Assembly: GCA_002706605.1 (NCBI GenBank)
Contig: PALT01000025.1
Span: forward strand, 186,001 to 250,000
Source: Rhodovulum sp.
GTDB taxonomy: Bacteria; Pseudomonadota; Alphaproteobacteria; Rhodobacterales; Rhodobacteraceae
Length of the DNA: 64,000 nucleotides
Reading direction: 5' to 3'
A model generated the notes under the pieces. The model had not been told where the DNA came from and searched no databases. It saw nothing but the letters and a program-made list of their open reading frames with translations. The position numbers were made by a program, and so were the translations under genes. Shown piece after piece: positions 17,229 to 29,453 of this stretch. How positions within the stretch are numbered: position 1 is the first letter of the stretch; every line of letters begins with the position of its first letter.

Positions 17229-18394
17229 CAACGACCTCTTCGCATCAAAATATCACCGATTTCACCCTGCGGACGGGTGCGCGTCAGGGCCAACAACATG
17301 CCCATCAAAATGCCGCCCGCGATGATCGACGAGCCGCCATAGCTGACGAACGGCAGGGTCATGCCCTTGGCGGGCAACAGACGTACCGCCACGCCCATAT
17401 TGATGAAGGCCTGAACGCCGAAAATGCACGCCAGACCCGTGCCCGCCAGACGGATGAACGGGTCACGCTCGCGCATCAACCGATAGAGGGACCGCACAAC
17501 CACCACCGCATAGAGCGCGATAATCACAAGGACGAGGGCAAGGCCATATTCCTCGGCCGCGACGGCGATAATGAAATCCGTATGCGCATCCGGCAGGGAT
17601 TGTTTCACGGTCCCCTCGCCCACGCCGACGCCGAAAAACCCGCCTTCGCGGATGGCGTTCGTGGCATAGCCAAGCTGGGTGCGCGGGTCGATTTCGGGCG
17701 ACAGGAACCCGTCGATCCGACGCGCAAAATGTTCGGAATTATAATAGGCCACCGTGCCCGCCATCATGGTCAGTCCCGCCATCCCGATCAGCAGGATGAA
17801 TGGCGCACCGGCGACGAAATACATCACGCCCCATGCAAACAGGATCAGGGCCGATTGGCCGAAATCGGGCTGCATCGCCAGAAAGGCCACGATGACCACG
17901 GCGATGGCAAAACTAAAGGATTTACCCGGCGGGCCACCGATTTCCTGACTGGCGGCCATCAACCACGCGGCCAGGATGATGAAGCCGGGCTTGAGGAACT
18001 CGGACGGCTGCACCGAGGCGAACCCAAGGCTGTACCAGCGCACCGCGCCCTTGCCGAAATCCGTGCCCAGAACCGGCAACAGGGCCAGCGCGACAAAGGC
18101 CGCAAAGAAACCCAGCACGCCCAGACGCCGGATCAGATCGGGCGAAAACATCGACGTGACCATCATCACGCCCAGCGCGACAAAGCCGAAAAACGCTTGG
18201 CGTTCAACATAATGGAAGGGATCAAGCCCGTTGCGCGCGGCCAAGGGCGGCGAGGACGCAAGACCCAGCAACAGACCAATGCTGAACAGCAACAGAACGC
18301 TGGACAGGGTCCATTTGTCGATCGTGCGCCACCACCGAGGTAGAACAGGATCCCCCACGCGCATAGGCGCGGCGCCGTACACCATTTCCGTCAT
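17228..18394 (-). CDS. ftsW: SEDS peptidoglycan polymerase FtsW
   Basis: A 388-residue protein with about ten membrane helices, the septal glycan polymerase of the divisome. SEDS landmarks include [19 protein letters not shown], the extracellular catalytic loop with [17 protein letters not shown], and the final [19 protein letters not shown]. It is the first dcw gene on this strand. Upstream, where murD normally stands, there is instead a decarboxylase gene with its own terminator, so a promoter for ftsW is expected between about 18400 and 18500. Confidence 0.96.

Positions 18395-28042: not shown

Positions 28043-28043
<1 letters not shown>
27276..28043 (-). CDS. Exported FG-GAP/VCBS-like repeat protein
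   Basis: A 255-residue secreted or periplasmic protein of unknown role. The N-terminus is a twin-basic then hydrophobic signal (RGAAVMAVLVGAGMPAVA). Two calcium-loop-like repeats are visible, LADVDGDGAPEIIV and ADLDGDGVVELAYID, the D-x-D-x-D-G...E pattern of FG-GAP/VCBS beta-propeller blades. With about 220 mature residues there is room for only part of a propeller. The ATG at 28043 overlaps the ferredoxin stop (ATGA), so the two are coupled, an odd pairing. A longer frame upstream is ferredoxin antisense and is not used. Confidence 0.82.
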
Positions 28044-28375
<332 letters not shown>

Positions 28376-28445: not shown

Positions 28446-28478
28446 TTGTCGCTGCGTCATATTGTTCTATATTTGTTC
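28446..28478 (+). promoter_or_regulatory. SOS promoter: sigma-70-like elements overlapped by a LexA box
   Basis: GTTC-N7-GTTC at 28464-28478 is an exact match to the alphaproteobacterial LexA operator. It overlaps a -10 like TATATT (28468-28473), which has a -35 like TTGTCG (28446-28451) at a 16-base spacing. Bound LexA would block this promoter. Transcription would start close to the ATG at 28484, leaving little or no leader. Confidence 0.75.
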
Positions 28479-28483
28479 TCGCC

Positions 28484-28864
28484 ATGACGCTTGATCTGTC
28501 CGCCTTTCAGGGGCCGCGCTGCACCCCCAATGACCGCCTGCCCTATACGCCGGTTGGCGGGCGGGTGACGATTGCCGGTCTGGTTCTGGTGCGCCAACGC
28601 CCCGGCACGGCCAAGGGCGTGGTGTTCCTGACGCTTGAGGATGAAACCGGCACCGCGAATGTGGTCGTCTGGGCCAAGATGTTCGAACAATACCGCCGCG
28701 CGGTGATCTCGGGGCGGCTGTTGCGGGTGACGGGGCGGTTACAGCGCGACTCGGGCGTGAACCATGTGGTGGCCGAGCGGATTGAGGACATCTCGCCCAT
28801 GCTGGATCTGCTCTTGCACCCCGAGTTCGACAGGCTGGTGGCGCAACAGGCGCAAACGCGCTAA
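28484..28864 (+). CDS. Orphan OB-fold protein resembling the C-terminus of DnaE2/ImuC polymerase
   Basis: A 126-residue protein beginning [10 protein letters not shown]. Its core is closely similar to the C-terminal OB domain of error-prone polymerase DnaE2 (ImuC): [40 protein letters not shown] and [13 protein letters not shown]. No polymerase sequence lies upstream; the ferredoxin gene starts within 120 bases on the other strand. The gene is therefore either a stand-alone OB protein or a remnant of a lost dnaE2. The intact frame, normal codon use and a consensus LexA box six bases before the ATG favour a functional SOS gene, perhaps a single-strand DNA binding partner in mutagenic repair. 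Confidence 0.8.
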
Positions 28865-28913: not shown

Positions 28914-29453
28914 ATGAAACCATTCCTTGGGATATTGCCCGTTGTGGCGATCTGTGCCGCGTGCAGCACGACCGCGCCCGGTGCCGATGTGACCCGCGTC
29001 TCCGCCGATGGCCAGACGCCCGCGCCGCCGGGTGCCGCGCCAGGCACGTGCTGGTCCAAACGCACCGAACCGGCCGTGATCGAAACCGTGACACAACAGA
29101 ACCTCGTGCAACCGGCCGAAATTCTGGACGACGGCACGGTGATCTCACCCGCCCTCTACCGGACCGAGACGTTACAGCGGATCGTGCGTGAGCGGCGCGA
29201 GACGTGGTTCGAAACCCCCTGCCCCGAGGTTCAGGATAGCGAGTTCCTTGCCTCGCTCCAACGCGCGCTAAAGGCGCGGGGATACCATGTGGGGCCTGTG
29301 ACGGGGACCTATGACTGGCTGACGCGGCGCGCGGTGCAGACCTATCAAAAGGAACAGGGGCTGGACAGCGCGACCCTGTCCCTGGCGGCGGCGCGGCAAC
29401 TGGGTCTGGTCGCCTATGATCCCAGTCTGATCCCGCCCACGCCTGACATCTGA
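28914..29453 (+). CDS. Lipoprotein with peptidoglycan-binding domain
   Basis: A 179-residue lipoprotein. The signal ends in a lipobox (ICAACSTT, Cys at about residue 17). A Pro/Ala-rich spacer and a central region with two further cysteines (GTCWSK, ETPCPEV) follow. The C-terminal 60 residues are a PG_binding_1 domain: FLASLQRALKARGYHVGP then GTYDWLTRRAVQTYQKEQG. It is probably anchored in the outer membrane with its domain toward the murein. The start at 28914 is 50 bases after the OB-fold gene, so the two could share a transcript. Confidence 0.87.
   Translation: MKPFLGILPVVAICAACSTTAPGADVTRVSADGQTPAPPGAAPGTCWSKRTEPAVIETVTQQNLVQPAEILDDGTVISPALYRTETLQRIVRERRETWFETPCPEVQDSEFLASLQRALKARGYHVGPVTGTYDWLTRRAVQTYQKEQGLDSATLSLAAARQLGLVAYDPSLIPPTPDI

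Follow-up and report, generated by a model that had tools for sequence, protein, structure and literature searches.

The SOS mutasome ImuA-ImuB-DnaE2, with examples in Caulobacter and Mycobacterium, contains a fused DnaE2, and GTTC-N7-GTTC is the alphaproteobacterial LexA consensus. Cyanobacterial DnaE is a split-intein C-family polymerase encoded in two genes. Intein-split cyanobacterial polymerases are covered in the available passages of PMC3919608, as are several DnaE2 sequences without an OB domain and split imuA-imuB-dnaE2 cassettes. A plasmid-borne imuA-imuB-dnaE2 cassette of Dinoroseobacter shibae is described in the accessible part of PMC9426580, and stand-alone ImuB-C domain proteins and split ImuB modules in those of PMC6511836 and PMC12926913. 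A split DnaE2 OB is not mentioned in these parts of PMC12926913 or PMC6511836, and the accessible part of PMC6473078 does not mention dnaE, imu, polymerase or OB-fold. Among the literature matches listed, which comprised excerpts of open-licence papers only, no report of a stand-alone DnaE2 OB gene was found.

The window analysed here is a stretch of 64,000 nt from Rhodovulum sp. (contig PALT01000025.1, positions 186,001–250,000); coordinates are those of the window unless a contig is named, and the genome itself was labelled G000. On the forward strand an ORF of 126 residues extends from an ATG at 28484 to a stop codon ending at 28864. It was assigned as a stand-alone DnaE2-type OB subunit gene (28484–28864, +) from the reading frame, Pfam and NCBIfam matches, purifying selection and AlphaFold2 modelling. 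The N-terminal extension (28484–28564, +) corresponds to the region that carries a W-x(1,2)-P-P motif in 74 of the 78 distinct stand-alone OBs and in 0/58 fused OBs; the motif is absent from the window protein. The OB fold follows (residues 28–103; 28565–28792, +), as delimited by the match to Pfam PF01336 over residues 28–103 and by structure matches.

DnaE2 (PRK05672, positions 940–1039 of 1047) was the best NCBIfam match of the ORF, with an E-value of 3.7e-32, and Pol III alpha came second with only 3.6e-07. Pfam returned the OB fold tRNA_anti-codon (PF01336, E 4.8e-14), and the SSB family PF00436 scored 17.3 bits, below the cut-off of 26. The resemblance to the C-terminal OB of DnaE2 that had been proposed in a first-pass annotation of the window was thereby confirmed. 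The AlphaFold2 model of the ORF, obtained with 41 stand-alone sequences, has a mean pLDDT of 87.7 and a five-stranded OB arrangement, and it matched OB-fold chains among solved structures both with Foldseek and in a second structure comparison. The latter was topped by an M. tuberculosis DNA polymerase (7pu7; Z 12.3, rmsd 4.7, 95 aligned), with others tied within 1 Z, and no C-family polymerase was present among the 50 Foldseek matches listed. A sequence search of solved structures with the ORF gave weak or spurious matches, the best related one being E. coli Pol III alpha (E 0.065).

The PHP, Pol3 and (HhH)2 core is absent from the polypeptide, which encodes the OB alone. As the first-pass annotation had also stated, no polymerase sequence occurs among the neighbours in the window, which are xseA, purD, VCBS-like, 2Fe-2S ferredoxin, PG-binding lipoprotein-like, DegP, HflC and HflK (a family search supplied the names ferredoxin and PG-binding; the remaining ones were read off the sequences). 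The 2Fe-2S ferredoxin gene, fdx (28043–28366, −), and the PG-binding-domain lipoprotein-like gene (28914–29453, +), each defined by ORF, family search and site comparison, form the left and right sides of the insertion site considered below and lie outside the system.

The first-pass annotation had suggested looking for a full dnaE2 elsewhere in the genome. A dnaE2 is indeed present, but it is not full: it stops where the OB should begin. Searching G000 with a DnaE2 profile returned a DnaE2 at C34:207331–210249, Pol III alpha on C35 and the window ORF. This DnaE2 matches profile positions 3–947 only (the last few of them beyond its TAG stop) and the window ORF matches positions 938–1039, so that the two are complementary pieces on different contigs. 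The core stops just past the helix that precedes the OB linker, six residues beyond its last LLR helix, and in a model of the fused protein (pLDDT 82) the break was placed in the linker, 957–972. A split intein was considered for G000 and rejected: given this core end, and an OB ORF that starts about 27 residues before the OB fold, there is no room for an intein at either place, and no protein splicing is expected. The catalytic Asp triad is kept in 47/47 split cores, that of G000 among them, and the xLPLF clamp-like motif in 46 of the 47, the remaining one reading MPLF; because both are kept, the split core should, as judged from these motifs, be an active polymerase.

Upstream of the OB gene, a pattern scan located an exact LexA-type operator, GTTC-N7-GTTC (GTTCTATATTTGTTC; 28464–28478, +), which is separated from the ATG at 28484 by five bases (28479–28483). 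A putative −10 element, TATATT (28468–28473, +), lies within the operator, with T-A-T at box positions 5–7 conserved at 0.93/0.93/0.74 in 82 loci. Reading of the sequence also gave a candidate −35 element, TTGTCG (28446–28451, +), 16 bp upstream of TATATT, with T and G at the matching place at 0.66–0.89 in the 82 aligned loci. The box before the ATG and the TATATT were thus as first annotated. By itself the box in the window is not significant, since the 64 kb contain two exact boxes versus 2.57 expected by chance. The other one, at 18284–18298 (−), lies inside an ftsW-like ORF and is probably due to chance. The box before the OB gene gains its significance from conservation: an exact box, always gene-oriented, was found at 82 of 86 distinct stand-alone OB loci versus two of 1339 control windows. 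Of the four other loci, two have no box, a contig end truncates the third, and the fourth has a box with one mismatch. In 60 of the 82 loci the first in-frame ATG lies 2 nt past the box, which makes a leaderless or near-leaderless OB mRNA plausible. LexA would be expected to bind these boxes, by analogy with the alphaproteobacterial consensus.

For the distribution of the two pieces, 198 Rhodobacteraceae genomes were searched with the DnaE2 profile and the window protein, and the resulting table was compiled by hand. A truncated DnaE2 was found in at least 83 genomes (the calls for G092, G142 and G182 rest on gene fragments), a stand-alone OB in at least 82 and both in at least 80, and a full-length DnaE2 in at least 86 (five of these calls, G021, G102, G109, G115 and G179, rest on cut or broken genes); the counts are lower bounds, as 28/198 genomes fell outside the classes (no DnaE2 match, fragments, or beyond the matches listed). 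G035 has both a full-length and a truncated DnaE2. Fisher's exact test on the co-occurrence table gave 4.9e-49, a value that counts inherited states and not independent events, because the association stems mostly from one ancestral event.

Several candidates for the split form were rejected and counted as full-length: G009, where a fused gene crosses the end of a plasmid contig; G202, G115, G179, G021 and G102, fused genes cut by contig ends; and G109, the pieces of which join in one frame (1376.5 bits). G119, with a broken gene, was excluded from all lists. Open-frame lengths for a few OB places vary (169 versus 943 for G193), and separately drawn frames agree with the short values. A survey across the class covered 133 genomes (131 from other families) and yielded no clear case of a stand-alone OB. 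Of three short frames, that in G257 was rejected as a full-length gene broken by a frame change, that in G268 starts near the contig start, and that in G242, a possible candidate of 129 residues bounded by a stop, lies near a contig end of a draft genome.

A truncated core without an OB was observed in G068, G186 and G204. A more sensitive OB profile detected no OB in these three, with a single 19.9-bit match in a 976-residue frame of G186, and a search for fdx at E 1e-10 gave nothing in them except a paralogue (40%) in G068. As the neighbouring fdx is also missing, an assembly gap is likely. An OB without a truncated core occurs in G085, which is fragmentary, and in G075, which is near-complete (seven contigs) and has no DnaE2.

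Whether the ORF is a gene at all was assessed from selection and from its site. The dN/dS of the OB genes has a median of 0.26 and a maximum of 0.72 (Nei–Gojobori; dS 0.05–1.5; 2892 pairs of 86 sequences, many pairs being near saturation), so that the purifying selection on codons anticipated for a genuine gene was observed. Closely related pairs, among those listed, often lie at 0.02–0.15, and 55 columns of the OB alignment exceed 90% conservation. Over 14 OB loci, xseA-like and hflK-like genes recur in nine each and VCBS-like genes in seven, with local rearrangements visible in the ORF clusters. Five fused-type genomes (G117, G036, G010, G012 and G189) display the empty site, with VCBS-like, fdx and PG-binding and/or degP genes in succession and no OB between them. 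Across 11 split-free fdx loci (that of G218 included, the G068 paralogue excluded) no OB was found, nor any box within about 420 nt of the fdx start; in the other six of them the far side of fdx differs or was unrecognised. The vacancy of this site in fused-type relatives means that the OB gene was inserted beside fdx; no dnaE2 was observed at the site.

These results bear on the alternative raised in the first-pass annotation, in which the ORF is what is left of a deleted dnaE2 and retained its promoter by chance; an inactivated dnaE2 as the source was considered along with it. Remnants of this kind exist, as in G013, where an unrelated 192-residue frame contains a C-terminal stretch of a fused DnaE2. 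For the window gene, the occurrence of the stand-alone OB in 82/198 genomes, and not in this one only, a dN/dS well below 1, the conserved operator, the recurring neighbours and the empty site leave such an origin a vanishingly small probability; an intact dnaE2 at the same site, which would mark a deletion, is not found beside fdx in the fused-type relatives examined. The remnant explanation is already refuted for this gene. A chance ORF is ruled out by the same selection, operator, distribution and empty site.

The remaining mutasome genes of G000 are dispersed as well. No contiguous ImuA-ImuB-DnaE2 cassette is present; ImuA and ImuB are both encoded, and the four separate loci comprise imuA (C26:273916–274416), imuB (C34:375766–377409), the core on C34 and the OB gene (C26:214484). 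One exact box is located near the start of imuA in 14/14 loci fetched from stand-alone-OB genomes, and at least one exact box was found in each of 20 imuB loci of split genomes (for G000 alone, its position was calculated and lies immediately ahead of the start). For truncated dnaE2, scanned in both orientations, 17 of 47 loci have an exact box, 28 have one with a single mismatch (the same GAAT change throughout) and two have none; most of the boxes are reverse-oriented, and a box with 0–1 mismatch occurred in 8.4% of 1634 control windows. With their own boxes at separate loci, imuA, imuB, the core and the OB gene would constitute four separate LexA-type units.

Together, the split pieces fall short of the complete fused protein, since the tail HPRxQAKxLFPSRDFH, found in 53 of 58 distinct fused DnaE2, is missing from 47/47 split cores and from all but one (G218) of the 78 distinct stand-alone OBs. 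The G013 piece (L312, C1:3908000–3914500) comprises the OB portion and the SRDFH tail of a fused DnaE2, and the split system is present in G013 as well. Many stand-alone OBs (L005, L006, L161 and others) end in RA(G/A)DQP or a similar ...QP, an ending that the window protein lacks; because the 11 examples compared differ in their codons, it looks like a motif at the protein level.

An insert some 45 residues long, with the consensus GDAIDQEARATRSRA-KRR-WERGG, distinguishes ImuB of the split lineage. It was present in 22/22 main-lineage genomes looked at (19/19 plus the chromosomal ImuB of G035, the broken one of G208 and the diverged one of G033) and was absent from the 11 fused-type ImuBs examined (10 and that of G023) and from G218. 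In G033 and G075 it is altered yet recognisable, the G075 copy being decayed and without the W-RGG part. The insert represents one correlated change and not many, because it arose once. The Y-family domain order puts it just before the thumb. In the available part of PMC12926913, published AlphaFold models have the ImuB thumb touching the (HhH)2 region of DnaE2. As the insert precedes the thumb, the thumb touches (HhH)2 and the OB follows (HhH)2 in fused DnaE2, the insert may dock the detached OB.

Three genomes show particular arrangements of these genes. In G208 (L265, L333) an imuB with several stops adjoins a truncated dnaE2 for which no LexA-type box was found, possibly reflecting a decaying mutasome. 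G035, apparently Dinoroseobacter shibae (L331 on C1, L041/L124 on C4), encodes two SOS mutasomes: the split system with an insert-bearing ImuB on the chromosome, and a cassette with fused DnaE2 and an insert-free ImuB on a plasmid. G075 (L075, L279) keeps an intact boxed OB and ImuB, with no DnaE2.

By comparison of the genomes, the core ends at the point matching the start of the OB piece, the two pieces co-occur, intact, constrained and boxed, and the insertion site is empty in fused relatives. The explanation that we consider likely is that the ORF is the OB domain of DnaE2 (ImuC), cut off at the linker after (HhH)2 and relocated under its own LexA-type operator, and that this OB acts in trans in the SOS mutasome. 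DNA damage would then lead to cleavage of LexA and to release of ImuA, ImuB, the DnaE2 core and the OB subunit from four loci. The OB protein, probably translated from a near-leaderless mRNA, would join the core/ImuB complex in trans and hold the single-stranded template as the fused OB would, with the lineage insert of ImuB as a candidate docking site replacing the lost covalent link. Counting against this explanation are the absence of the N-terminal motif from the OB of this genome, the intact OB of G075 in a genome with no DnaE2, and the loss of the fused tail from both pieces. An SOS mutasome accessory had been proposed in the first-pass annotation. A conserved, LexA-boxed gene for a DnaE2-type OB, probably part of the mutasome, remains of that proposal. 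A detached OB subunit of a two-piece DnaE2 is a more apt description of the ORF than an extra SSB-like accessory, because precisely this domain is missing from the genome's own DnaE2 and both pieces occur together in 80 genomes.

The same near-perfect co-occurrence with truncated, not full-length, DnaE2 (G035 has both) weighs against a different role, that of an independent SOS-induced single-stranded DNA-binding protein of DnaE2 origin beside a truncated DnaE2 that works without an OB. We regard this role as unlikely, while noting that G075 retains the OB without DnaE2, where the intact OB may act alone or the loss of DnaE2 may be recent. The role would also suit the new N-terminal motif and the lost DnaE2 tail, read as drift from the parent domain, and DnaE2 and DnaE3 sequences without an OB are in print (available part of PMC3919608). 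It would equally suit the three draft genomes with a truncated core and no detectable OB; these, however, also lack a linked ferredoxin gene and resemble assembly gaps, and the lineage-specific ImuB insert points to re-tethering in the mutasome.

If the OB does act in trans in the mutasome, it might further be a regulatory subunit that gates mutagenesis, an extension which we put forward only tentatively and hold to be rather doubtful. Because the core box is usually degenerate (one mismatch in 28/47) and the OB box nearly always perfect (82/86), leaky expression of the core might go with an OB made only under full SOS. Docked on the ImuB insert, the OB would make a working translesion polymerase out of a core that has little processivity by itself. 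It could also serve other polymerases, because G075 keeps the OB and ImuB without DnaE2.

The history of the split was examined with trees of the core and of the OB. The core tree unites 46 split cores in a single branch (support 100) whose sister is the fused DnaE2 of G004 (L127, C400), the gene of which already lies outside the cassette and has its own box. The OB of G004 groups with fused OBs (support 95; 88/86 in a second tree), a discord between core and OB that may reflect re-fusion or recombination. The core of G218 pairs with the fused G017 (support 99). In G218 a dimethylargininase-like gene of opposite orientation (name read from the sequence) separates the truncated dnaE2 from the OB gene about 1 kb downstream. 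The OB gene encodes a product that keeps the SRDFH tail; it also has its own LexA-type box and the W-PP motif. The core data reject one clade of all split cores (p-AU 0.00016) and the OB data, the trees of which are poorly resolved, are compatible with a single clade of split OBs (p-AU 0.31), so that either two fissions took place or the split was reversed in G004 and G017.

A single ancestral fission with later re-fusion in the G004 and G017 lineages, as opposed to two separate fissions, is credible but falls somewhat short of being probable. It would account for the W-PP motif and LexA-type box that G218 shares with the main clade, for the OB of G004 grouping with fused OBs though its core is sister to the split clade, and for OB data that allow a single split clade. 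On the other side, it runs counter to the core tree in which the split rows are rejected as one clade, and it needs three changes where the minimum on the core tree is two. The placement of the G004 OB is also weakly supported, because a constraint joining it to the split OBs stays above the 0.05 rejection level (p-AU 0.065).

Evolution itself has carried out an experiment here, by splitting a C-family polymerase into a catalytic core and an OB that has its own gene and its own control. The role of the OB becomes addressable through one small gene, as does the gating of mutagenesis by a domain supplied in trans. Roughly 40% of the sampled Rhodobacteraceae genomes (82/198) have the stand-alone OB, and Dinoroseobacter shibae (apparently G035) offers an internal control because it also has the fused form on a plasmid.

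Compared with known systems, the arrangement resembles cyanobacterial split-intein DnaE in that two genes encode a C-family polymerase, and differs from it in that the pieces stay separate, with no splicing expected. Like the stand-alone ImuB-C proteins and split ImuB modules in the available parts of PMC6511836 and PMC12926913, it has a part of the mutasome as a separate small protein; here, unlike there, the separated part comes from the polymerase (the DnaE2 OB) and not from ImuB. The truncated core lacks the OB and CTD, as do the OB-less DnaE2 sequences of PMC3919608, whereas here the OB co-occurs as a separate LexA-boxed gene and the accessible passages of that paper mention no separate OB gene. 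With the fused DnaE2/ImuC mutasome it shares the same core, OB, ImuA, ImuB, LexA-type boxes, Asp triad and LPLF motif. It is set apart from that mutasome by split polymerase genes at separate loci, a cassette spread over four loci, pieces without the SRDFH tail (except in G218), the ImuB insert and the W-PP motif in 74/78 of the OBs.
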